The notes below the pieces were generated by a model. The model saw only the letters and a program-made list of their open reading frames with translations, was not told where the DNA came from and searched no databases. Shown one piece after another: positions 7,772-24,657 of a DNA stretch of 29,180 bases. The DNA is from a virus, in IMG/VR virus record IMGVR_UViG_3300047562_004445, positions 1 through 29,180 of that record, one strand, 5' to 3'. The first letter of the stretch is position 1; every line of letters begins with the position of its first letter. Both the position numbers and the translations under genes were made by a program.

Positions 7772-8647
7772 ATGGCATCTGCTATAAAGAAAGAAATAAT
7801 AAGTAGTATAAAAAATAAACTACTTAGACCTTCTTTAACGTCACATTATTTGTGTAACTTTTCTCCTCCAAGTAACTTAACTGAAAAAAATCCAGGAAAT
7901 GGATTTTTTTTAGGTAGAGGAATAAATGTCTTAGATAAAAATAAAATGTATGATAGACTTTCTTTAGGATGTTGTGAGGCTTCTTTGCCTGGTTCATCAC
8001 TTGCTACTCTTGATATTAATAATGACTATCATGGAGTAACTCAGAAACATGCTTATAGGAGATTATATGATGATAGAGCAGATTTCACTTTTTATGTTGA
8101 TGGTTCAGAATATTATGTAATTCACTTTTTTGAGGCTTGGATTTCGTATTGTATCAATGAACAGCGTTCAGATGACAGAATAAAAAGACATCAAGATTAT
8201 ACATATAGGGTAAATTTTCCTGACACCTATTATGCAAATGAAATGAGTATTGTTAAATTTGAAAGAGATTATATAGATTCATCTAGAAGTTCTACAATCC
8301 AATATAATTTTGTTGGAGCATTTCCAATTAGCATTAGTTCTATGCCAGTTTCATATGATCAATCTAATTTATTAAAATGTACAGTTTCTTTTTCATATCA
8401 AAGATATTATCTAGATAAATTTATAAATTCTCAATCATATACTCCTAAAAATCCAAATGCAACTGGTGTTTCTGAATTAAATAATAAACCTGCAAGTAAA
8501 TCTTCTAATGGTACTCAAGTAGCATCTTCTGTATCACAAAGTGGTAGTGAACAATTACCACAAAGACAGATTGCTAATCAAAATATTTTAAATAATAGAG
8601 CATTTGTAAGAACATCAATATATACTGATGGTGGAATAGTAAGATAA
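7772..8647 (+). CDS. 54: gp54-like baseplate tail-tube initiator
   Basis: The 291-residue protein (T4 gp54: 320) has the beta-rich tail-tube fold pattern: RLSLGCCEASLPGSSLATLD, YRRLYDDRADFTFYVDG, HFFEAWISYCIN, then QYNFVGAFPISISSMPVSYD and LKCTVSFSYQRYYLD. The paired LPG segment and the SFSYQRYY strand are typical of gp19/gp48/gp54 relatives. In T4, gp54 binds gp48 and starts tube and sheath polymerisation. The C-terminal ~70 residues are low-complexity, rich in Asn, Ser and Gln. The ATG is separated by 29 bases from the divergent gene 4 start. No strong Shine-Dalgarno is seen upstream. Confidence 0.8.
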   Translation: MASAIKKEIISSIKNKLLRPSLTSHYLCNFSPPSNLTEKNPGNGFFLGRGINVLDKNKMYDRLSLGCCEASLPGSSLATLDINNDYHGVTQKHAYRRLYDDRADFTFYVDGSEYYVIHFFEAWISYCINEQRSDDRIKRHQDYTYRVNFPDTYYANEMSIVKFERDYIDSSRSSTIQYNFVGAFPISISSMPVSYDQSNLLKCTVSFSYQRYYLDKFINSQSYTPKNPNATGVSELNNKPASKSSNGTQVASSVSQSGSEQLPQRQIANQNILNNRAFVRTSIYTDGGIVR

Positions 8648-8681: not shown

Positions 8682-9398
8682 ATGCCTTTACCTAAGATTT
8701 CTACACCAACATATGAGTTGGAATTGCCATCTACAGGACAAAAAATTAAATACAGACCATTTTTAGTCAAGGAAGAAAAACTACTTCTTCTTGCATTAGA
8801 AACTGAAGATAATAAACAAATTACAAATGCAATTAAAACTGTAATTAAAAATTGCATTGAAACTAAGGGCATCAAAGTTGAGACTTTGCCCACATTTGAT
8901 ATTGAATTTTTATTCCTAAACATTCGTGCAAGATCTGTCGGGGAAGAAATTGAAGTTAATTTGATTTGCCCAGATGACAATGAAACAACAGTTCCTGTAA
9001 CAATTAATGTTGACGATATTAAAGTAGAAAAGAATAAGAATCATCACAAACAAATTAAACTTGATGATTCACTTATGATGGATATGAAATATCCTTCTTT
9101 AGATCAGTTCATTAAAAATAACTTCGATCTAAATGGAAATACAATGGAACAATCATTTGAACTAATTGCAGATTGTATTGATAAAATTTACTCAGAAGAA
9201 GAAGTTTGGTCTTCATCTGATGTGACTCGTGAAGAGATGGTTGATTTTCTTGAGCAAATGAACTCACTTCAGTTTAAACAAATTGAAGAATTCTTTGAAA
9301 CCATGCCAAAACTTTCTCATAAAGTTAAAATTAAAAATCCAAAAACTAAAGTTGAAAGTGAAGTTGTTCTTGAAGGATTATCAAGTTTTTTCGGATAG
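8682..9398 (+). CDS. 26: gp26-like baseplate hub or tail assembly chaperone protein (0-frame form)
   Basis: The 238-residue protein (T4 gp26: 208) begins MPLPKISTPTYELELPSTG. It has a conserved KYRPFLVKEEKLLLLALET segment followed by TFDIEFLFLNIRARSVGE and EVNLICPDD, as in T4-like gp26 proteins. The C-terminus is helical and acidic. T4 gp26 is needed for hub assembly; the position upstream of the tape-measure-like genes equals that of tail assembly chaperones in other phages. The frame ends SSFFG with TAG at 9396-9398, but a slippery heptamer lies just before the stop and the -1 frame continues for 61 codons, so a longer product is likely also made. Confidence 0.8.
   Translation: MPLPKISTPTYELELPSTGQKIKYRPFLVKEEKLLLLALETEDNKQITNAIKTVIKNCIETKGIKVETLPTFDIEFLFLNIRARSVGEEIEVNLICPDDNETTVPVTINVDDIKVEKNKNHHKQIKLDDSLMMDMKYPSLDQFIKNNFDLNGNTMEQSFELIADCIDKIYSEEEVWSSSDVTREEMVDFLEQMNSLQFKQIEEFFETMPKLSHKVKIKNPKTKVESEVVLEGLSSFFG
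9386..9392 (+). other. Candidate -1 programmed ribosomal frameshift site T TTT TTC
   Basis: In the gene 26 frame the codons read AGT TTT TTC GGA TAG. The seven bases T TTT TTC are a canonical X-XXY-YYZ slippery heptamer. Slipping back one base keeps perfect pairing in the P site and continues with CGG ATA GGT. The -1 frame is closed by TGA at 9371-9373 and the 0 frame by TAG at 9396-9398, so the heptamer lies exactly in the short usable overlap. AAGGA (9373-9377) upstream could act as an internal Shine-Dalgarno stimulator. A weak 5-pair hairpin (9398-9402 with 9412-9416) begins 5 bases downstream. Confidence 0.72.
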
Positions 9399-9577
9399 GT
9401 CTTTCTCATATAGATCTTGAAAATTACTTTCGATTAAATTTTTCTTTGATGCAATATCATAAATACTCTTTGACAGAGATTGAAAATATGATGCCTTTTG
9501 AGAGAGACATCTATGTTGCTTTATTACAACAGCATTTAGAAGAAGAAAAACTTAAGCAACAGCAAAATGGCGGATAA
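9392..9577 (+). CDS. -1 frame extension of gp26 (gpGT-like domain), 61 codons
   Basis: After the slip the product gains 61 residues, giving about 298 in all. The extension reads RIGLSHIDLENYFRLNFSLM, then a segment with SLTEIENMMPFERDIYVALL, and a charged tail ending KQQQNGG. An E-x-x-x-M-P-x-x-E-R-x-x-Y motif of this kind is typical of small downstream ORFs beside tail chaperones. No start codon with a ribosome-binding site precedes it: ATG 9449 and ATG 9488/9491 lack one, and each would give only a fragment. In T4 a separate gene 51 lies in this neighbourhood; equivalence is inference. It overlaps the next gene by 11 bases. Confidence 0.65.
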   Translation, partial: RIGLSHIDLENYFRLNFSLMQYHKYSLTEIENMMPFERDIYVALLQQHLEEEKLKQQQNGG

Positions 9578-11877: not shown

Positions 11878-14769
11878 ATGGCAATTAATAGAAATTTATT
11901 GTTACCATCAGCATCATCCTCAAGTGCAATAGTTAAGAAGACCTTTAATGCTTCTGCATTAGCATCTATTAAAACTAATAAAAAAGAATTAACACTTAGT
12001 CCCCAAAAGACATCATTAAAAGATTTACTATCATCTATTAATGAAACCGTAAAGAAAATTAATATTATAGTAAAGAAGACTACTTTATCTCAGAGTAAAG
12101 CATATAAAGACGGTCTTAAAGAAGCAAGACTTGCAAGAAATGCTGAAAGAGAAAGAAAACTCGAAGAAAAAAAGAAAGATAAACCCAAAGAAAAAGAAGA
12201 AAAAAAAATACCAGGATTAGGATTTCTTGATAGAATTAAAAGATTTTTATTCTTTACATTCTTGGGATGGTTAACAAATAAGTATTGGGATAAACTTCCA
12301 CAAGTATTAGAGTTTACGAAGAAGTTAACTCCAATCATTGATGTCATCGAAACTATTGGTGGAGCATTATTTAATGGAGTGGTTAATTTTATTGATACTG
12401 GTTATAAAGTTTATGATGGTCTTAGAGACTTTACAAAACAAATTGGTGGGGAAGATTTTCAAAAGAAATTTGATGACTTTAGTAAAAATCTTAATACCTT
12501 TATTAACATTGCCATTATTGCTGGTATGGCAACGATGGGTGGTACTGATTTTGGTTCTAGAGGTGGTCGTCGTGGTGGTCCTGGTGGTGGAAAACCTGGA
12601 AGGGGTGGTTATAGAAATGGAGTTCGCACGGGGCAATATAATGGATTTAATACACGCACTACTCGTAGTGGAAATCTTTTAAGTAGGACTGGAGATGCAT
12701 TACGCGCCCAAAGAGGAGATTGGAGTACCTCTGGTTATATAAAGAGTGAAAAAGATATAATGAAAAGATACTTCCAGAAACATGGAAGGGATGCTGCTAT
12801 TCGTAGATTTGGTCAGGAGGGAGTCGAATCTTTAGGTGGTAAGTATGCTAGATCTGGAGTCACTAATCTTGCTAGAAAAGGTGCAGTTAGTCTTCTTGGA
12901 AAAGGTGGCACAAAAGCAGCACTAAGAATAGTACAACCACTAGTTAGAAATATACCACTAATTGGTGGTATTATGGAATTTGTTCTTTCTTGGATGTCTG
13001 GTGACTCTCCAGGAAAGGCAGCATTTAAAGGTGTTGGTGCAGGACTTGGAACATGGGTTGGTGGTGCAATTGGATCTTTGATTCCTATTCCTGGTGTAGG
13101 AACTGCTATTGGTATGTGGTTAGGTAGTCAAGGTGGATCTGCATTAGGTGAAGCACTGTATAATAAGATCTTTGAAAATAGAGAACCGGGTCAAAAGAAA
13201 TTAGATCAACCAAAGAAAAAAGCAAGAGGTGGCGTAACCAGAGGTGGTAAAAAAGTTGCTGAGAATATTGGTAGATCATTAAAAATACAAAGAACTATTA
13301 AAAGGAATTTAATCTCACCTAAACCAAATAAAATAATTCCAGGTGTTGATGTTGGTGGTGAAAATAAAATAAAATCAATGTTTCCTGAACCATCTATGCA
13401 ACAAAGTGGTTTATATCAAAATCCATTTGGATTTTTATATAATAGTACCAATTCTATGGGAGATGTTCCCTACATTGGACCATTATTTTCTTTATTTGGA
13501 AAATTGCTACTTGGACAATCACCTAAAAGTTCAGATTATAAAATTATAAGTCTTGGGTTAACCGCATGGATTAATAATGCAATAACTGATAATTTGTTAA
13601 ACGGAAATAATATAGAAAAAATGATAAAAGAAATGCCAATATGGATGGAATCATCTATTAAAAAATTGGTAGATGGTGTAACAATTGATGTATTAAATCA
13701 ATTAAAAGAATACTTGTTATTGAAACCATTAAGAGAAATGTTTTCATCATCACAATTATCTGGATCTGAAGCAGGAGAATTGGGTTCTGCAAGTGATGCT
13801 GTTGGTGGTGCAAGATTGTTTATGGCAGCGGGTTTCCCAATGCTTGCTGCAGCTATTCTTTCTGGAAATGTTCAGCAAGAATCTGGATGGAAAGGTCAAA
13901 GAACTCCTTGGGTTTTAAATGATGGTGCAGGAACTAATAAAGGATTGATAAGTTGGAATAGAACTAGAATCACAAACGCTGAGAAATTTTTAGGTAAACC
14001 ACTAGAAACTGCAAGTAATGCAGAGCAAGTTAAATGGATTAAAGAAGAATTAAGACAATATGGGTTGCTTGATGATTTTATGAATCCTCAAGCAACAGAA
14101 GCGCAACTTCAAGAAGCATCATACAAATATATTGGTTGGGGACACCTTGGTAAAAGATGGGATTACTCAAAACAAATTTTTTCTGCACTTCAAAAAGGTG
14201 AGCAAGGAACTTATTCCCCAGGTGTTAATATAAGATTGGGTTCAAATAATGATGCTGCACTAGGATCTAAACTTGCTGGAGAACTTGGAGATTTTATGAA
14301 ACAATGGGGAGGAGTTCCCGGTGATGTGCATAGACATCCAAAACATCTACCTTGGGATCCAAATCGTGGACATTCACCAGGATCTTTGCATTACCAGGCA
14401 CAAGGTGCCAGAGCTATTGATTTGGGATCTTGGGCAAATGAACAAGGACCTATACTTAAAAAAATAGAAGAATTTAATAGATTAAAGGGAGTTTCACCAG
14501 TTCAACTTTTACATGCAGGAAATGATCCAACTGGAAATCATGATAACCATGTTCATGTTGCTTATAAAGATGGTGGAATGATTGGTCCTAATAAACCAAG
14601 AAATATAAAACCACTTCAAGAATCAGCATCATATGATGAAGGATATATGATCTTAATTCAACCAGTTATTATCGAAAAACCAGTACCAGCTATGGATAAT
14701 AAGATTAATTTTTCTGGTGGTGGTAGTGTAAATATTAATAAGGACAAGTCATCTCTATTCATAAGGTAA
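11878..14769 (+). CDS. Large tape-measure or hub-like protein with lysozyme-like and M15-peptidase-like domains
   Basis: This 963-residue protein has a charged coiled N-terminus with KEK repeats (near 80-115), FLDRIKRFLFFTFLGW (near 117-132) shared with its upstream neighbour, an RGG/glycine-rich segment (near 222-256), and glycine-rich hydrophobic helices (near 350-430). Near 655-790 is a phage-tail-lysozyme-like region: SGNVQQESGW (Glu668), GLISWNRTR and KYIGWGHLGKRWDY. The C-terminal part has a zinc-peptidase-like set: SLHYQAQGARAIDLG (His838, Asp848) and NHDNHVHVAY (His891, His893), as in D-Ala-D-Ala peptidases of the M15/VanY type. It probably combines tail-core structure with cell-wall opening. 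The stop overlaps the next ATG (TAATG). Confidence 0.65.
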   Translation: MAINRNLLLPSASSSSAIVKKTFNASALASIKTNKKELTLSPQKTSLKDLLSSINETVKKINIIVKKTTLSQSKAYKDGLKEARLARNAERERKLEEKKKDKPKEKEEKKIPGLGFLDRIKRFLFFTFLGWLTNKYWDKLPQVLEFTKKLTPIIDVIETIGGALFNGVVNFIDTGYKVYDGLRDFTKQIGGEDFQKKFDDFSKNLNTFINIAIIAGMATMGGTDFGSRGGRRGGPGGGKPGRGGYRNGVRTGQYNGFNTRTTRSGNLLSRTGDALRAQRGDWSTSGYIKSEKDIMKRYFQKHGRDAAIRRFGQEGVESLGGKYARSGVTNLARKGAVSLLGKGGTKAALRIVQPLVRNIPLIGGIMEFVLSWMSGDSPGKAAFKGVGAGLGTWVGGAIGSLIPIPGVGTAIGMWLGSQGGSALGEALYNKIFENREPGQKKLDQPKKKARGGVTRGGKKVAENIGRSLKIQRTIKRNLISPKPNKIIPGVDVGGENKIKSMFPEPSMQQSGLYQNPFGFLYNSTNSMGDVPYIGPLFSLFGKLLLGQSPKSSDYKIISLGLTAWINNAITDNLLNGNNIEKMIKEMPIWMESSIKKLVDGVTIDVLNQLKEYLLLKPLREMFSSSQLSGSEAGELGSASDAVGGARLFMAAGFPMLAAAILSGNVQQESGWKGQRTPWVLNDGAGTNKGLISWNRTRITNAEKFLGKPLETASNAEQVKWIKEELRQYGLLDDFMNPQATEAQLQEASYKYIGWGHLGKRWDYSKQIFSALQKGEQGTYSPGVNIRLGSNNDAALGSKLAGELGDFMKQWGGVPGDVHRHPKHLPWDPNRGHSPGSLHYQAQGARAIDLGSWANEQGPILKKIEEFNRLKGVSPVQLLHAGNDPTGNHDNHVHVAYKDGGMIGPNKPRNIKPLQESASYDEGYMILIQPVIIEKPVPAMDNKINFSGGGSVNINKDKSSLFIR

Positions 14770-16079
14770 TGGGTGCATCTAAAAAAGCAGAATCTGGAAA
14801 CATAAAAAAGTTTGAAGTATATTCAAACTCAGGAGAAACTATTGATCTTACTGGTGCTGGAGTTTTATCCGAATTAGTTTACTATGAAAGTATTTTAGAT
14901 TTAACTGTAAGGGCATCTGCAACTTTTGTTGATAGTGGTAATAGAACAAGTGGAGAAGGAATTTCTTTAGTTGAAGAATTATCTTCTGGAAATAAAACAA
15001 ATATTAAAATATCAGATAATTATGGAACCACTTTATCTTTTTCGGGGGATAATCATTTAAGAGTAAAGCAACCAAGGAATATGTTGCAAGACACTTTTAA
15101 ATCGACATTTACAGTTGATCTTTATTCTAGAGACTTTATTACCAACGATGAAGCAAAATCACTAGTAGAAAAAAAGTATAGTGGAAAAATAACAGATACT
15201 ATTGAAAAAATAATAAAACAGGACTCATTAAAAACTGAAAAACCTTTATTGATTGATGAGTCAGTTAATACATTAGAAGTTATTGGCAGAAAAAGAAAAC
15301 CATTTTCTGTAATTTGTGAACTTGCAACAAAATCTTGTCCTGATATTGAAGGTTCATTTGGAATTTTAGCAGGATACTTTTTTTATGAAACTTATGATGG
15401 ATATAATTTTAGATCAATTGATAAACTATTCATGCAAAGTCCAAAAAGAAAGTTAATTTTTAATAATACAGATGGATTGCCAGTGGGTTATGATGAAAAA
15501 ATAATAGAATATTCTTTTGATGTTGGTATTGATCTTGATAATAAAATTAAAAGTGGATCAATTGGTAAAACTAAATTAATTACTTTTGATACTTTTAATA
15601 ATACGTATCAGGGAGAAAATGGAAATGAATTTGATATATCAGAACAATTTAAAGGTAAAAATAATGCAGGAAAGGATGAGATTAAATATCCATCAGATTT
15701 AGATATTGATGTAACTAAAATATATACAAAAATACCTGATATTGGCATTAATCCTCCAGGAAAAAATGCCAAAGAGCAGTTAAAAAATTCTCAAAATATT
15801 AATTTCGATATAGATAAAATTGTTAGACAATCAAAAGCAAGATATAATAATTTATTTAACGTAAAACTTTCAATCGCAATTGCAGGTGATCTAAGTTTAA
15901 GAGCAGGTGATTTAATTCACTGTGACTTTCCAGAAGTATCAAGTAAAAAGAATATTATTGCAAGTAAGAAAACAAGTGGACTATATATGATAGTAGATAT
16001 AGCAACTTTATTTAATAGTGCGGGAACATTTACTAGAATTAATCTAGTAAGAGACACAATAGGAAGGAAACCTACTTAA
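14769..16079 (+). CDS. 27: gp27-like baseplate hub protein
   Basis: The 436-residue protein (T4 gp27: 391) has a beta-rich start with SELVYYESILDLTVRASATF and NLLQ-like segments, then KRKPFSVICELATKSCP and GYFFYETYDGYNFRSIDKLF. This pattern (a helper helix PF..I..L...., then F-F-YET-DGY-F-S---L) is typical of tail-hub proteins of the gp27/gpD type. A C-terminal strand set includes LSLRAGDLIHCDFPEV and GLYMIVDIATLF. In T4 the gp27 trimer is the hub that holds gp5. The gene lies directly upstream of the CP12-like and gp5-like genes, consistent with this. Overall identity to T4 is probably low, so the symbol is given by role and position. Confidence 0.72.
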   Translation: MGASKKAESGNIKKFEVYSNSGETIDLTGAGVLSELVYYESILDLTVRASATFVDSGNRTSGEGISLVEELSSGNKTNIKISDNYGTTLSFSGDNHLRVKQPRNMLQDTFKSTFTVDLYSRDFITNDEAKSLVEKKYSGKITDTIEKIIKQDSLKTEKPLLIDESVNTLEVIGRKRKPFSVICELATKSCPDIEGSFGILAGYFFYETYDGYNFRSIDKLFMQSPKRKLIFNNTDGLPVGYDEKIIEYSFDVGIDLDNKIKSGSIGKTKLITFDTFNNTYQGENGNEFDISEQFKGKNNAGKDEIKYPSDLDIDVTKIYTKIPDIGINPPGKNAKEQLKNSQNINFDIDKIVRQSKARYNNLFNVKLSIAIAGDLSLRAGDLIHCDFPEVSSKKNIIASKKTSGLYMIVDIATLFNSAGTFTRINLVRDTIGRKPT

Positions 16080-16080
16080 A

Positions 16081-16296
16081 ATGGATAGAACAATTCAACA
16101 ACATATTAATGACGATAAACATGAATTAGATTCTGGGTCACTAAGTCCCCAAAGAAAACGTCATATCCAATCTGAACTTGAACAGTTACAAAATTATCAA
16201 CAGAAACATCCTGACCATACACAAGATCCAACTCCATTGCAACTTTATTGCGACGAAAATCCAGACGCCCTTGAATGTAGAATATACGAAGAATGA
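16081..16296 (+). CDS. CP12-like small protein within the tail-hub operon
   Basis: The 71-residue protein ends TPLQLYCDENPDALECRIYEE. The Cys57-(8 residues)-Cys66 pair with NPDA and ECRIY is the signature C-terminus of CP12, the disordered redox protein that binds GAPDH and phosphoribulokinase and slows the Calvin cycle. The N-terminal cysteine pair is missing, and the usual AWD-VEEL core appears only as SELEQLQ (31-37). The start ATG 16081 follows the gp27-like stop by one base, and the stop ATGA overlaps the gp5-like ATG, so it is fully embedded in a late structural operon. It may be a metabolic regulator made late, or a repurposed virion part; the sequence cannot decide. Confidence 0.72.
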   Translation: MDRTIQQHINDDKHELDSGSLSPQRKRHIQSELEQLQNYQQKHPDHTQDPTPLQLYCDENPDALECRIYEE

Positions 16297-18950
16297 GTTT
16301 ATTTAATAACGAACAATTTGGAGAAAATGTTAAAATTTGGATGGGCCAAATTGTTGATGATGAATATTGGAAAGATAACGAGCAAGCAGAAAAATGGTCC
16401 GATCCTGATGACATACCTGGATGGGGGGCAAGATATAAGGTAAGAATTTTTGGTAATCATCCAGAAAATGCAAATGATTTAAAAAATGAAGAACTACCTT
16501 GGATTGAAGTAATGTATCCTGTTACTGCAGGTTCTGGACATGCAGGAAGTTCTCAGACATCAAATCTAAGAAAAGGTGCTTTTGTTATTGGTCTTTATAG
16601 AGATAAAGATGAAAATGAACCTTTTATTATTGGATGCTTGGGAAATAATGACCAAACAAAATTAAATTATCAACAAACTGATAAAGGATTTACTACATTA
16701 TCAGGATTTGGCGGACAAAATCCTGAGAATGTTCCTGGATATTCTCAGTCTCAAAGTGGTGGCAAGAAAACTGAAGCAAATACTACATCAGCAACTAAAG
16801 AAAAGACTAAAACTGATGAGAAGCAAAAAAAAGATGGTGAAAGAAGTAATGCTTTAAAAAAAACTACAAAATGTGGTGGCAATGAACTAAGTGCAGCACA
16901 AAAATCTATTCAAAAATTAATATTAGATATTGAAGAATTTAAAGATAATTATCAAAATAATTTAATTACTGAAGAAGGGCAAAGTTATGGATTAAGAGAA
17001 TATATTCAGTATAAAGTAACTAATGCTGCTAAAGAAATATCAAAACCAATTAAAACAATAATTAATCATATACGTAAATATACAACTGAAAAAGTTAACA
17101 ATGGATTAAAAGATCTTTATTATATTATTTTCCCTGAAGATAGACCAAAAGCAAAAACTGCGCTTGAAAAAGCATTAGAGTTACTTTCTTGTTTATTTGA
17201 TAAGATTATTGACAATCTTCTTAAGATGATTGGTCAATTTTTAATGCAAATTGTTGACCGATTTATTAATACTCCACTATGTGCAGTTGAAAACTTTTTA
17301 GCACAATTGCTTGGGGAAATTGTTAGTTTAATTATGGGTGCAGTTGATGCAATTTTAGGTCCTTTAGAAGCAATATTTGGAGCAATTGATGTTGCAATAG
17401 ATGTTTTAACTATACTTTTAGATATTATTGGATTTTTTAGTTGCAATCAGGATCCAGAATGTCCAGATATTACAGAATGGAGTATTTGGGATGGAGCTAA
17501 TAGTAATCTAAGTTTGGATATTAATTCTGTCTTTAATAAAGCAAAGGGTGTTGCGGATCAATTTAAAGGGTCTATTGGAGACATTGCAAATTTTGATTAT
17601 AATATTGATTTTGCAGGAATGCTCCAAAGTACTTTAGATTCTTGCAACGTTGGTCCTTTGTTATGTGGGCCTCCCACTTTATCAATTTATGGAGGAGGAT
17701 CTGGAGAAGGAACAAGTGGAAATGTAATTGTAAGTGCAGTTGGAGATATTCTTGGGGTTGACATTATTACTCCTGGATCTGGATATACAAAGCAACCTTT
17801 TCTAAAAATTATTGACAATTGTGGTAAAGGGAATGGTGCCGTTGTAAAACCTCAGATGGGAATTGTACCCCCAGAATTAGATTTAACTGCTACAAAACAA
17901 CCAAATGGCACATATGACATCAATTGGAAAACTAAAAAAGCAAATAAAGTGGAAACTTCATTTGGAGCTACCACATTAAATGGAACAATTAATGTTAATC
18001 CAGATCAAACATCAACATATACAGTTACTGCATTCGGTAAAAAAATAAAAAATTCTGAAAGACCTTATATAACAAAATCAATAACTATTAATGTATCGAC
18101 ACAAATTATAAGTCAAAATAGTCCGATTATATCAGGAGTACCTATAAGAGATGCTGTACAATATGTAACGTCAGATATTCCAGAATACCCAGGAAACATT
18201 GGAAACCCTTTGGGCCCTGATGGAAATAATTCAAATCCTTCACTTGAAGATCCATGTTCAGATACTCCAATTATTAAGAATTTATTATCAACTGGAAAAT
18301 TTACATCAGATCAGATTGGTATTATTAATATAGTTGTTCTGGATTCTGGTGCAGGATATCTGTCAAAACCTGATGGAAGTCTTGGTGGCGATGGTAGAAC
18401 ATGGGCACAACCAAATGAAACTGTTATTAGGAGAAATGATGGAACATATGATAAACCATATAAACCCGGTGAAGTTATTTCTGTTAATAAGTGTGATCAA
18501 GTAAATCCTCCCGATCAACCTACTTATCAACCTGATGAACCAATTATTCTTACAGCTCCAGAACCAACTGGAGGACCTGTAAGAGCAGGAACTTATGCAA
18601 CTAAAGATACTGGAGAATATCCAGTGTTTTTATATCTTTGTGGTATTGAAATTGAAGATGCAGGCGCTAATTATGATAAAGATATTGATAGTATTACAAT
18701 TACTCCAGATAATGGTGCAGTTCTTGAACCAGTATTTGGTCCTGGTGGTAGATTAATTGACATTAAGATAATTAAAAATGGATTTGGATTTACTGAAAGA
18801 CCTGTAATAACTATAAAAACAACAACTGGATATAATGTAAAAATCAATCCAATATTGTGTGTAAATAGATTGAATGATGATCCAATTGCCGCATCAAGAA
18901 TTCCTGCGGACAAAATTATTAAAGTTGTTGATTGTGTAGGTAAAATCTAA
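16293..18950 (+). CDS. 5: gp5-like baseplate hub/spike-base protein without an evident lysozyme domain
   Basis: The 885-residue protein begins with a gp5/VgrG-type OB domain (about 1-125): VKIWMGQIVDDEYW, GWGARYKVRIFGNHPEN, LPWIEVMYPVTAGSG and KGAFVIGLYRDKDENEPFII. T4 gp5 has 575 residues with a lysozyme in the middle; I see no GH24 motif here. A charged linker follows, then a hydrophobic helical part (about 265-385). The C-terminal ~400 residues have repeated strand motifs of the type D-x-x-x-x-GxGY (TPGSGYTKQPFLKI, DSGAGYLSKP, DAGANYDKD, KNGFGFTERPVITI). The beta-helical spike is encoded by the next gene, whose ATG overlaps this stop. A unit split between genes is therefore likely. Confidence 0.8.
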   Translation: MSLFNNEQFGENVKIWMGQIVDDEYWKDNEQAEKWSDPDDIPGWGARYKVRIFGNHPENANDLKNEELPWIEVMYPVTAGSGHAGSSQTSNLRKGAFVIGLYRDKDENEPFIIGCLGNNDQTKLNYQQTDKGFTTLSGFGGQNPENVPGYSQSQSGGKKTEANTTSATKEKTKTDEKQKKDGERSNALKKTTKCGGNELSAAQKSIQKLILDIEEFKDNYQNNLITEEGQSYGLREYIQYKVTNAAKEISKPIKTIINHIRKYTTEKVNNGLKDLYYIIFPEDRPKAKTALEKALELLSCLFDKIIDNLLKMIGQFLMQIVDRFINTPLCAVENFLAQLLGEIVSLIMGAVDAILGPLEAIFGAIDVAIDVLTILLDIIGFFSCNQDPECPDITEWSIWDGANSNLSLDINSVFNKAKGVADQFKGSIGDIANFDYNIDFAGMLQSTLDSCNVGPLLCGPPTLSIYGGGSGEGTSGNVIVSAVGDILGVDIITPGSGYTKQPFLKIIDNCGKGNGAVVKPQMGIVPPELDLTATKQPNGTYDINWKTKKANKVETSFGATTLNGTINVNPDQTSTYTVTAFGKKIKNSERPYITKSITINVSTQIISQNSPIISGVPIRDAVQYVTSDIPEYPGNIGNPLGPDGNNSNPSLEDPCSDTPIIKNLLSTGKFTSDQIGIINIVVLDSGAGYLSKPDGSLGGDGRTWAQPNETVIRRNDGTYDKPYKPGEVISVNKCDQVNPPDQPTYQPDEPIILTAPEPTGGPVRAGTYATKDTGEYPVFLYLCGIEIEDAGANYDKDIDSITITPDNGAVLEPVFGPGGRLIDIKIIKNGFGFTERPVITIKTTTGYNVKINPILCVNRLNDDPIAASRIPADKIIKVVDCVGKI

Positions 18951-19546: not shown

Positions 19547-20254
19547 ATGGATTTAAATACAGACGTAAAAGTTGGAAAAAGACTTCAATGTGGTTCGGGT
19601 AGACCTCCATTAATGGGTCTTGGTACTACAGAAGTTAATGGATTTGCTTCACTTGAAGGACCTGCTCAAATAGGTGCTGATTCAGAATTTGCAATTCCTG
19701 CTATTGATGGAGAAACTGGAGGACCCCCATGTGGGTCTGCAACTTTGATGGTTGGTAGAACTGCAAATAAAGATGTTTTAAGAAATCCTTTATTTGGTGG
19801 AGCACCTTTTTATTCATTATTAGTAAAAACTTATGCTAGAATTAAAAGTTTTTTGAAAGTTGATGTTTTATTGACGGTTAAACTTTTAAAAGCAAAGATT
19901 ATTTACACAGAAGTTCTTATGGCAAAGTCTAAGAACTTTGTCATAGATCATCCTTCACAACCAAATAAGAAGTTAGTACATGCTTGCTTAGAGGGTCCAG
20001 AACATGCAGTATATGTAAGAGGTCGTATAACTAATAAAACAATAATTGAGTTACCTTATTATTGGAAAGATCTTATAGATGAATCTACAATTACAGTTCA
20101 ATTGCAACCAATTGGAGCACATCAAAATATTATTATCAAAAGAATTGGTCAAAATGAGATACATTTACAAGGACAAGGGATACCAATAGATTGTTTTTAT
20201 CATGTTTATGCAGAGAGAAAAGATATAGATCATTTAGAAGTGGAGATTGATTGA
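19547..20254 (+). CDS. Virion-associated protein with a C-terminal fibre-type domain (copy 1)
   Basis: The N-terminal ~85 residues are glycine-rich (RLQCGSGRPPLMGLGTTEVN, GGPPCGSATLMVGR), with no motif I recognise. From about residue 125 the protein has FVIDHPSQPNKKLVHACLEG, PEHAVYVRGRI, IIELPYYWKDLIDESTITVQ and a final CFYHVYAERKDIDHL. This HP-x-P...LEGPE..VY-RG...LP-YW domain is shared with the next gene and, from memory, with many phage and cyanobacterial fibre-like proteins, where it often sits at the C-terminus. It is probably a tail or baseplate appendage. No clear ribosome-binding site precedes ATG 19547; the gap from the spike gene is 3 bases. Confidence 0.6.
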   Translation: MDLNTDVKVGKRLQCGSGRPPLMGLGTTEVNGFASLEGPAQIGADSEFAIPAIDGETGGPPCGSATLMVGRTANKDVLRNPLFGGAPFYSLLVKTYARIKSFLKVDVLLTVKLLKAKIIYTEVLMAKSKNFVIDHPSQPNKKLVHACLEGPEHAVYVRGRITNKTIIELPYYWKDLIDESTITVQLQPIGAHQNIIIKRIGQNEIHLQGQGIPIDCFYHVYAERKDIDHLEVEID

Positions 20255-21084
20255 TGGCACCATTTAAATTTAGACACTATGGAACCTTTACAGGACCAAT
20301 TTCTCTAACTGGTGACTGGATTTATGATAGTGTTTCATTGGAAGGATCTTGGCAAACAGATTTTCCAATTGATACCTCATTTAAGTTAACAGATGTTGCT
20401 GTAGTTTTTTATAATAATGAATTTGACTACATGGGGTATCATTTATATGGATTTAATACAAATATTGCAGTATTAGAAAAAAATACGGGTCCTTTAGCTT
20501 TATTACTAGCAAATGTATCAAATACAATATTTAATGGAAATACAATTGCAAATGGTAATGTAATTACAAATGGCAATGTAGTTGCTAATGGAAATATAGT
20601 TTCTAATGGGGTATTAAATTGTACAGGATCAGTTACTATTGCTGGTGTTGGTGAAATGGTTCAAGCAATTACTGAGGCAAAAGCATTGCCAGCAAAATCA
20701 TTTGATATTCCTCATCCATCAAAACCAAATACTCATAGACTTAGGCATGTAAGTTTAGAAGGACCAGAGATTGGAGTTTATTGTAGAGGTAAACTTGAAA
20801 ATGAAAGTATAATTAATATTCCAGAATACTGGTATGATTTAATTGATCCAGAGACAATTACTGTTAATTTGACACCATTTGGATCATATCAAGAGTTATT
20901 TGTAGAAAAAATTGAGTGGGGTAAAAAAATTATTGTAAAAAACAATTCAGGATCTTCTATAAATTGTTATTATACAATTTATGCAGAGAGAAAAGATCTT
21001 GATAAATTAATTGTAGAATATGAAGGAAAATCTATACAAGATTATCCTGGACAAGATTTCTTAGGCATTAAAAAGGAAGTTTAA
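20254..21084 (+). CDS. Virion-associated fibre-like protein with hexapeptide repeats (copy 2 of the C-terminal domain)
   Basis: From ATG 20254 the protein has 276 residues. GGAG (20242-20245) lies 8 bases upstream, and the ATG shares a base with the previous stop; TTG 20251 is less likely. A first domain ends in tandem NGN repeats (about residues 93-118) predicted to form a small beta-helix. The C-terminal domain repeats the plan of the upstream gene: FDIPHPSKPNTHRLRHVSLE, GPEIGVYCRGKLENESIINI, PEYWYDLIDPETITVNLTPF and CYYTIYAERKDLDKL. The two genes probably arose by duplication and may form one appendage. Confidence 0.62.
   Translation: MAPFKFRHYGTFTGPISLTGDWIYDSVSLEGSWQTDFPIDTSFKLTDVAVVFYNNEFDYMGYHLYGFNTNIAVLEKNTGPLALLLANVSNTIFNGNTIANGNVITNGNVVANGNIVSNGVLNCTGSVTIAGVGEMVQAITEAKALPAKSFDIPHPSKPNTHRLRHVSLEGPEIGVYCRGKLENESIINIPEYWYDLIDPETITVNLTPFGSYQELFVEKIEWGKKIIVKNNSGSSINCYYTIYAERKDLDKLIVEYEGKSIQDYPGQDFLGIKKEV
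20533..20610 (+). repeat. 18-bp tandem repeat, about 4.5 units, coding NGNxxx hexapeptides
   Basis: Units start at 20533, 20551, 20569, 20587 and 20605 (partial). Each begins AAT GGN AAT (Asn-Gly-Asn; the last lacks the third codon) followed by three variable codons for Thr, Ile, Val or Ala-type residues. The period matches one turn of a left-handed beta-helix or a trimeric fibre repeat. Confidence 0.8.
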
Positions 21085-21086
21085 TT

Positions 21087-22358
21087 ATGTCAGAATTTTA
21101 TATACCACCTATAGATAACAGTCTGAATGTAACACAAAATAGTCAAGTTGTTGTTGCAGGATTAGGTTCTGAAAGAAGTGGGATTGAATCTGCTAATAGT
21201 ATATTACATAAACCAGTTGGAATTGCTTCAACTGCTATTAGTAGATATCAAGTTATAGCAAAAGAATTAGATCTTGAACTATTAAATAATGTTTCTTCAA
21301 TTCTTAATGAAATTAATAGCAAAAAACTTCAAATAGTTGAAAAATCTCAACTAGCATTGGTGGGATTCGTTACAGGTATTAACCCTCCAATATGCGAAAT
21401 TGCATCTGATAAAAGTGATATTGATTCTTCTGTTGTATCAGAAAAAGATACTATTTCTGCATCAAACGCATTGACTGGAAGTTTAAGTGGATTGCCCGGA
21501 GTTCCAACTCCAAAAATTTCATACGGAGTAGTAAGAAAAGATACATTAAGGGTTTGGATAGCACCAAACTTAGAAGAAAGAAAAGCGCCAAATAATAATG
21601 CTTTTGAAAATTTAAAATATCCAAAATTAAATCAAGATAGATGTGGAAAAGGAAAAGAAAATATCATATTTAAAAATGATAAGTATAATGATGGAACTAA
21701 CACAATCTATTGTTGGAATAATACAGGTGATTGGTCTATTAAAGGATGGGAAAAAACAGGTAATGCATTAGGTAAATATTATTCAATTATTGGACCTGGA
21801 TCAGGAACTGCTAGATTAGCAGGTGTTTATGATGCAGTGACTCAAATATATACTCTTGATCCAGAATTTCAATCATTAACAGAAATACTTACTGATATTA
21901 CGACTGGAACATATACTCCACAAACAGGTGATGCACTTGTAGATATACCTATAAGTGCAAATTATAATCTAACTACAGGAAAGTTGACAAAATCAATAAT
22001 TTCATTTTTACCTATTCCTAGTGGATCTGGTTATTTTGAATTTGATTCAACTGGAATTTGTAATACTTTAAAATCTGAAATTGCTACATTAGAGTCTGAA
22101 ATTGAAACTCTTCGTGTAGGACTATCAACTTATTTGGAACCACCAAACTCTTTAAAATCAAAAAAGCATAGTGAGCAATTAAAAATGTGGTCACTAAAAA
22201 GAGTTGAAGTTGAAAATGAAGAAAAAATTACACAAATAGGAATTTCTACAAATGCTATTGTAGAAATAGATTCTTCACTACCATCAGGATCAAATACATT
22301 TGATGATGGAGTTCTGACAACATTCGATTCAGGTCAAATAACATTTGATGCTTATTAA
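21087..22358 (+). CDS. Conserved virion structural protein of unknown function, 423 aa
   Basis: I do not recognise a named family. The first ~90 residues are Ser/Ile/Val-rich with a helical segment (ELDLELLNNVSSILNEINSK). The middle has tryptophan-containing strands (YGVVRKDTLRVWIAPNLEER; YCWNNTGDWSIKGWEKTG), and residues 330-405 form a coiled coil (LKSEIATLESEIETLRVGL, then EQLKMWSLKRVEVENEEKI). The protein ends in three short FD-containing repeats (NTFDDGVLTTFDSGQITFD). A purine-rich AAGGAAG sequence precedes the ATG. Its place after the spike and appendage genes in an unbroken plus-strand run makes a baseplate or tail component likely. Confidence 0.7.
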   Translation: MSEFYIPPIDNSLNVTQNSQVVVAGLGSERSGIESANSILHKPVGIASTAISRYQVIAKELDLELLNNVSSILNEINSKKLQIVEKSQLALVGFVTGINPPICEIASDKSDIDSSVVSEKDTISASNALTGSLSGLPGVPTPKISYGVVRKDTLRVWIAPNLEERKAPNNNAFENLKYPKLNQDRCGKGKENIIFKNDKYNDGTNTIYCWNNTGDWSIKGWEKTGNALGKYYSIIGPGSGTARLAGVYDAVTQIYTLDPEFQSLTEILTDITTGTYTPQTGDALVDIPISANYNLTTGKLTKSIISFLPIPSGSGYFEFDSTGICNTLKSEIATLESEIETLRVGLSTYLEPPNSLKSKKHSEQLKMWSLKRVEVENEEKITQIGISTNAIVEIDSSLPSGSNTFDDGVLTTFDSGQITFDAY

Positions 22359-24048: not shown

Positions 24049-24657
24049 ATGAAATCAGATTTTTACATAGATAAAGTAGGTAAAGAAGAAATCAAATATC
24101 TTCTTTATACCTATCATTATCTTAAAGACGAATCAAAAGATTTTAAATCTGGTTTCAATTATGGGCTTTTCAGATCCTCAGTTTCTGATATTCTTAGGGT
24201 TGGTGGGTGCTTGGGCACTTGTATCTTTACTGGTCTACCAGTCCCCGAAGTAGCAGTAGGTGCATTTGGATTGGAAAGAAACCAACAAGAAGGGATATAT
24301 GAACTCTCAAGACTTTGTATACATCCAGATATTCAAAAAGAAGAGTATAATATTACATCTTGGTTCGTTAGTCGTTGTATAAGGAGATTTAAGAAAGATG
24401 CCACAGTTCGTGCTATTCTTAGTTACGCTGACAATAATCACCACTCTGGAATTATATACAGAGCTTGCAATTTTCAATACTATGGTTTGACTGATCCAAA
24501 AAAAGATTTTTACTATGCTGATGGAACTAAACACTCAAGAGGTTCTGTAAAGGGTCAAAGGGGTGAATGGAGGGAAAGAAGTAGAAAACATAGATACCTA
24601 ATGATATTTGATAAAGAACTGAAAAAACACTTGACATGGAAGGAAGAAAAGTGGTAA
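24049..24657 (+). CDS. Mom-like GNAT-fold protein (putative DNA base modification)
   Basis: The 202-residue protein has an ELSRLCIHPDI segment (85-95), SWFVSRCIRRFKKD (104-117), then SYADNNHHSGIIYRACNFQY (125-144), and a basic C-terminus (GQRGEWRERSRKHRYLMIF). The SYAD...HxGxIYRAxNFxYxG motif is characteristic of the phage Mu Mom family, acetyltransferase-like proteins that modify adenine in phage DNA to block restriction. A general GNAT acetyltransferase is the alternative. It is the last coding gene of the island. Its last codons contain the -35 and much of the -10 of the promoter of the candidate small RNA. Confidence 0.62.
   Translation: MKSDFYIDKVGKEEIKYLLYTYHYLKDESKDFKSGFNYGLFRSSVSDILRVGGCLGTCIFTGLPVPEVAVGAFGLERNQQEGIYELSRLCIHPDIQKEEYNITSWFVSRCIRRFKKDATVRAILSYADNNHHSGIIYRACNFQYYGLTDPKKDFYYADGTKHSRGSVKGQRGEWRERSRKHRYLMIFDKELKKHLTWKEEKW

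Follow-up and report, generated by a model that had tools for sequence, protein, structure and literature searches.

cp12 and its neighbours in the tail-hub operon

We analysed a 29,180-nucleotide stretch of viral DNA (IMG/VR record IMGVR_UViG_3300047562_004445), referred to below as the window, in which the plus-strand gene cp12 (16081..16296) encodes a 71-amino-acid CP12 with a C-terminal cysteine pair only. Directly upstream on the same strand lies the gene for a gp27-type baseplate hub protein (14769..16079; T4-GC15 / PHROG 350, the latter matched at 8.8e-60), and downstream that for a gp5-type hub or central spike protein (16293..18950, plus strand; Pfam Gp5_OB at 1.7e-6, PHROG 1922 at 1.5e-92). 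A Foldseek search with the model of the 14769-16079 product returned T4 gp27 (9mkb, 1k28 and 2z6b; best E 5.8e-18), and its cyanophage orthologue, T4-GC15, has been detected in virions of S-SM1 (PMC3037559). Further upstream are a baseplate-hub gene (8682-9398, PHROG 150) and a tail-tube-type gene (7772-8647, PHROG 45). Coupling of cp12 to hub genes on both sides, as read from the sequence in the original prediction, was confirmed, with flanks that are of the gp27 and gp5 types: a single nucleotide separates cp12 from the end of the gp27-like ORF at 16079, and the cp12 stop codon shares an ATGA with the gp5 start codon at 16293. A possible ribosome-binding site for cp12 (AGGAAGG, 16061..16067, plus strand) may be recognised within the end of the gp27 gene. 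Two adjacent plus-strand genes after the hub genes (19547-20254 and 20251-21084) are tandem paralogues, whose products have a common C-terminal domain of ~120-150 amino acids and both match PHROG 17490 and PHROG 28536, and a plus-strand gene at 24049-24657 encodes a Mom-family DNA modification protein (PF25680, 77 bits; PHROG 1384).

The PF02672 (CP12) profile matched the product of 16081-16296 with 52.3 bits, the cut-off being 22.7 (E 1e-13), over profile positions 5-70 of 70, and thus bore out the proposal of a CP12-like gene in the tail-hub operon. A match of 1.1e-21 was obtained to PHROG 627, the CP12 of T4-like cyanophages (T4-GC 337), and, judged by these profile matches, the product is a genuine CP12, far beyond chance. 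When the window CP12 was used in tblastn, 372 GenBank phage records were matched (best E 1e-20), all of them titled Synechococcus, Prochlorococcus, cyanophage or marine virus. Identity to the CP12 of any isolate is 58% at most, and the nearest IMG/VR relative stands at 72%. The AlphaFold2 model (mean pLDDT 90.6) consists of two N-terminal helices and short C-terminal helices, and its best two PDB neighbours were CP12 chains of the cyanobacterial GAPDH-CP12 complexes 6gfo (probability 0.89) and 6ghl (0.75); as these matches reached only E 0.048, the fold search was counted as supportive only. The median dN/dS of 0.15 for cp12, a value of clear purifying selection, shows that this is an active, constrained gene.

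The GAPDH-binding tail and the N-terminal part

The C-terminal GAPDH-binding tail, YCDENPDALECRIYEE (16246..16293, plus strand), aligns to the solved CP12 tails of 3ZDF (YCDDNPDAAECRIYDD, crystallised on GAPDH), 3B1J and 6GFO/6GVE, and contains both Cys57 (codon 16249-16251) and Cys66 (codon 16276-16278). With this alignment, the reading of the C-terminal cysteine pair as part of a near-consensus GAPDH-binding tail was upheld. Both cysteines are invariant across 48 aligned relatives, and a check of relatives at the locus found the C-x8-C tail kept in 107/107 distinct hub-locus CP12s; it was also always present in 11 distinct other phage CP12s and in 65 distinct CP12s from a genome collection, nearly all of marine Prochlorococcus or Synechococcus and one a phage contaminant.

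The N-terminal two-helix part (16081..16230, plus strand; helices predicted at residues 5-17 and 23-42) carries neither a cysteine pair nor AWD_VEE. No cysteine occurs before residue 57 of the window CP12, the N-terminal pair of the classical CP12-N/C form being absent, and AWD, likewise missing in the window, was found in none of the 107 hub-locus, 11 other phage and 65 genome-collection CP12s. Only 2 CP12s, both from the genome set, have two cysteines before the tail; the extra N-terminal cysteines of locus L086 arise from a reading frame that extends upstream of the true start. CP12 forms without the N-terminal pair have been described as CP12 subclasses, and the marine picoplanktonic group is without the classical form (PMC3906501). 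By its residues, the window protein is not a classical CP12-N/C, yet it is still a CP12. The N-terminal cysteine pair and AWD core had been called degraded; their absence was confirmed but decay of the N terminus was rejected, since the same state is found in related phage and marine picocyanobacterial CP12s, hosts included.

Compared with classical CP12 (S. elongatus, T. elongatus and plants; 6GVE, 3B1J, 3QV1), the window protein has a near-identical C-terminal GAPDH-binding tail but not the N-terminal pair and AWD_VEE core, so that it is not expected to bind PRK in a ternary complex. The CP12 of marine picocyanobacteria (Prochlorococcus and marine Synechococcus) is like that of the window in having the C-terminal pair only, no AWD_VEE and a similar N-terminal helical part, at mostly 35-47% identity; phages have NPxxSPQxRRHxExEL in place of the host-type segment that precedes the KVRHL motif. 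In a CP12 tree of 72 columns, in which most forks are unresolved, host sequences form their own clade save for one phage contaminant. The CP12 of T4-like cyanophages (T4-GC 337, PHROG 627; Sullivan 2010) belongs to the same family, with the same C-terminal cysteine pair and N-terminal type.

At 12 hub loci, an intact CP12 tail is joined to an N-terminal half of different, unrelated-looking sequence, of the PHROG 2603 type (L191, L199, L202, L205, L216, L237, L243, L244, L248, L250, L251 and L252). Proteins of PHROG 2603 (P-SSM2, P-SSM5 and the Marine virus AG-345 group) have the same tail as the window CP12 and occupy the same gp27-gp5 junction in IMG/VR and single-cell records, whereas their N-terminal half is histidine- and acid-rich (KEHINHGMIEY...INDWHTRHED). 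Such CP12s were also seen in the single-cell virus records AG-345-E15, -E08 and -D19, and in P-SSM2 at another site. As the tail is intact where the N-terminal half has been swapped, it is the GAPDH tail that selection maintains.

The gp27-gp5 junction across cyanophages

To avoid selection by CP12, loci for a survey of the junction were collected by their gp27 protein, which gave 80 loci, 76 of them with both flanks. cp12 was present at 61 of these 76 junctions (60 by rule, together with L248, which has a longer ORF) and the other 15 were cleanly empty, with a gp27-gp5 spacing of -4 to +35 nt; on the gp27 tree, the label for cp12 presence switches at least 6 times. The order gp27-like/cp12/gp5 is common to the isolates S-SSM7, S-SM2, S-RSM4, S-SCSM1, SynMITS9220M01 and DSL-LC02, and in S-SM1, Syn9, Syn33 and S-SZBM1 cp12 is followed by other inserts before gp5 (cpeT, a 2OG-oxygenase or tRNA-Val). 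The junction is empty in P-HM2, P-TIM68 and B23. Relocated copies occur in P-TIM68 (elsewhere in the genome) and in P-HM1 (adjoining talC), and in B23 cp12 was found neither at the junction nor elsewhere. Sullivan et al. (2010) had noted variable positions for cp12 in T4-like cyanophages, near gp5 among them. The hub junction is the usual place of cp12 in such viruses and is not special to the window; the suggestion that coupling to hub genes is unusual for a metabolic cargo gene did not survive the synteny survey, given the 61 occupied junctions and the six isolates with the same order. The finding is real, though mostly known: this is a standard cyanophage CP12, found where such genes commonly lie. 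The window copy, coupled on both sides and without a late-type motif of its own, is unlike the cassette type (S-SM1, Syn33) and the relocated type (P-HM1).

Several further observations were made on the surveyed records. A 188 kb contig assigned to 'Nonlabens xiamenensis' (NZ_RMVE01000006.1, L147) has a CP12 after a gp27-sized ORF and before CpeT-like and gp5-like ORFs; this CP12 groups with phage CP12s, and the contig, in a flavobacterial genome, looks like a contaminating cyanophage genome. In an empty-junction phage (L230 record, G009:62252-62338; L254), a short ORF elsewhere matched the CP12 tail alone, at 18.9 bits, which is below the cut-off. psbA was considered as a sign of non-cyanobacterial hosts for cp12-less hubs, and psbA-type matches were found in 2/8 empty and 7/10 occupied IMG/VR contigs; with matches in both groups and contigs too fragmentary, this marker cannot decide. 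In two records (L187, G019:31286-33268; L220, G022:28000-30006), the D1/D2 (PF00124) match is broken up along the DNA into three successive segments, as though introns or inserts interrupted it.

Late-promoter motifs and timing of expression

The sequence NATAAATA has been described as the late promoter motif of S-PM2 and Syn9 (PMC2984593). In the window, a late-promoter-type motif, CATAAATA (9459..9465, plus strand), is the last on its strand before the hub operon, and the next lies at 22358. The ATAAATA core is rarer in the window than in shuffles (9 vs 22), and for 6 of the 9 sites a start codon follows within 120 nt (binomial P 2.6e-6); sites close upstream of start codons, where they are concentrated, include 237, 8644, 9459 and 22358 on the plus strand and 6870 and 7769 on the minus strand. 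No late-type motif was found within 140 nt of the window cp12, nor on the plus strand between 9459 and 22358, so that the simplest reading has cp12 transcribed from 9459 together with the hub genes.

This arrangement was compared across 110 distinct tight loci, in all of which (110/110) the gp5 start lies -11 to +11 nt from the cp12 stop; 90, the window included, have a gp27-cp12 spacing of <20 nt and 20 have wider gaps. A late-type motif in promoter position was found in 0/90 of the former and in 10/20 of the latter. Copies in cassettes (5/10) and relocated copies (7/9; 12/19 together) carry it 27-31 nt upstream (~-28), and the P-HM1 gene beside talC has it at -31; the background within gp27 was 1/1080. 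Sigma-70-like matches in the gp27 3' end were regionally no commoner than in shuffled sequence, and a sigma-70-like promoter near cp12 was set aside for this reason.

Late timing, as originally proposed, was judged likely: the motif pattern argues for late, hub-linked expression of cp12 here and in the tight class. Two published observations bear on this reading. cp12 of P-HM2 is a middle gene (PMC5082946); as this copy is relocated and the gp27-gp5 junction of P-HM2 is empty, its timing speaks neither for nor against late timing here. S-RSM4 halts host CO2 fixation at ~2 h, compared with ~4 h for S-PM2, which is without cp12, talC, gnd and zwf (PMC10452541), a correlation only; S-RSM4 being of the tight type, this shut-off is in some tension with strictly late expression. 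The open-access literature searched does not seem to mention the division between motif-less tight copies and those that have a motif of their own, the clean presence or absence of this single gene at the junction, or the swapped-N-terminus CP12s found there.

Metabolic cargo or virion component

In gp27-ascertained loci, cp12 distances correlated weakly with those of gp27 and gp5 (r 0.24-0.42; for gp27, r 0.35 with a permutation P of 0.002), whereas equal-length 70-column pieces of gp27 and gp5, used as a control, gave mutual r values of about 0.65-0.87. A first pass over all loci had given r ~0.06 and the claim of no co-evolution with the hub; because those loci had been partly picked by CP12 similarity, and the gp27-ascertained loci gave a correlation that was significant with gp27, the claim was softened. 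cp12 and the hub genes are partly co-inherited, with exchange.

We also consulted published virion proteomes. The main text of the S-SCSM1 report gives 45 proteins by mass spectrometry, in which 13 unknowns and three named enzymes make up the non-structural set (PMC9602691), and that of the S-SZBM1 report gives 30, including gp5 (S-SZBM1_61), one enzyme and five unknowns (PMC9146016). CP12 is not named in either main text, S-SCSM1 having a tight hub cp12, although mass spectrometry of virions readily overlooks a small protein that yields few tryptic peptides. Cyanophage virions do contain other metabolic proteins (NMNAT or cytidylyltransferase; PMC9602691).

CP12 could have been taken over by the gp27-gp5 hub, as a small component of its structure or as an assembly factor, and the tight placement of gp5 after cp12 in all 110 loci, the mutual binding of T4 gp27 and gp5 (1k28, 2z6b) and the weak but significant correlation with gp27 are what such a role would lead one to see. 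A baseplate-hub component should be present wherever the hub is, however, and related hubs do without cp12 at 15 of the 76 junctions, which are cleanly empty, and at those of P-HM2, P-TIM68 and B23; it is the GAPDH tail that is conserved and not the N-terminal part, cp12 tracks the hub far less than hub genes track each other, and the main-text proteomes do not name CP12. We regard a structural role as very improbable. The chances are slimmer still that virions carry CP12, perhaps attached to the hub, and inject it so that the Calvin cycle is inhibited as soon as infection begins. If made together with the hub proteins, CP12 would be at hand during assembly, the virion enzymes mentioned above set a precedent, and the early stop of CO2 fixation by S-RSM4 would fit, but the proteome texts for S-SCSM1 and S-SZBM1, both with cp12 at this locus, do not name it, and no fusion of CP12 to a structural protein was seen. 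It would be just as surprising, to our minds, if CP12 rode on or near the gp27-gp5 spike at levels too low for past proteomics to detect and, once injected, throttled the Calvin cycle within minutes, before phage gene expression. The suggestions of a packaged CP12 or a baseplate part were not supported; the empty junctions, relocated copies and proteome texts speak against them.

Clean absences and relocated copies alongside intact hubs point instead to cargo, as do the tail kept next to a swapped N-terminal half, the weak tracking of hub distances, the proteome texts and the low dN/dS, and the occurrence of cpeT, a 2OG-oxygenase and tRNA-Val at the same junction marks it as a place where metabolic cargo enters. 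On this evidence, a metabolic effector made together with the late hub proteins is preferred to a component of the virion. That cp12 is ordinary cargo with middle timing and its own promoter, its hub position an insertion accident of no regulatory meaning, would agree with the middle class of P-HM2 cp12, with the many looser or relocated copies that have a motif at ~-28 and with the use of the junction by other metabolic genes. We nevertheless think it unlikely, in view of the contrast between 0/90 tightly spaced loci and the 10/20 wider-gapped and 12/19 cassette or relocated copies with a motif, and of the motif-free 140 nt around the window gene.

Proposed role of the hub-linked CP12

The identity of the gene, its conserved tail, its operon position, the wide conservation of that position and the lack of a nearby late-type motif are directly established. 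We consider it very probable that the product is a phage Calvin-cycle regulator, a CP12 of the marine picocyanobacterial type that acts as a metabolic effector from inside a T4-like cyanophage late hub operon. cp12 would be read within a long, presumably late transcript that also encodes the gp27- and gp5-type proteins, with its translation coupled to theirs, and the product would remain in the infected cell. There its tail, closed by a Cys57-Cys66 disulphide, may occupy the active-site cleft of host GAPDH (Gap2); redox-controlled binding and inhibition of GAPDH are predicted for the window CP12 from its tail. Calvin-cycle activity would then fall, and NADPH and sugar phosphates would be diverted to nucleotide synthesis. 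In the absence of the N-terminal cysteine pair, CP12 probably acts on GAPDH first, and recruitment of PRK is doubtful.

Viral CP12, which switches off host carbon fixation, is a textbook example of how phages reprogram carbon fixation in the ocean, and the CP12 of T4-like cyanophages was reportedly described by Thompson in 2011. The accepted middle timing of the gene rests on P-HM2, a phage with an empty gp27-gp5 junction whose sister, P-HM1, has cp12 adjoining talC. In the commonest arrangement surveyed here, cp12 is welded to late hub genes and is without a late-type motif of its own. If the tight copies are truly late, the account of NADPH diversion during replication would need a second timing class, and this contrast in timing, between the tight copies of S-RSM4 and S-SCSM1 and the relocated copy of P-HM2, is testable in existing isolates.
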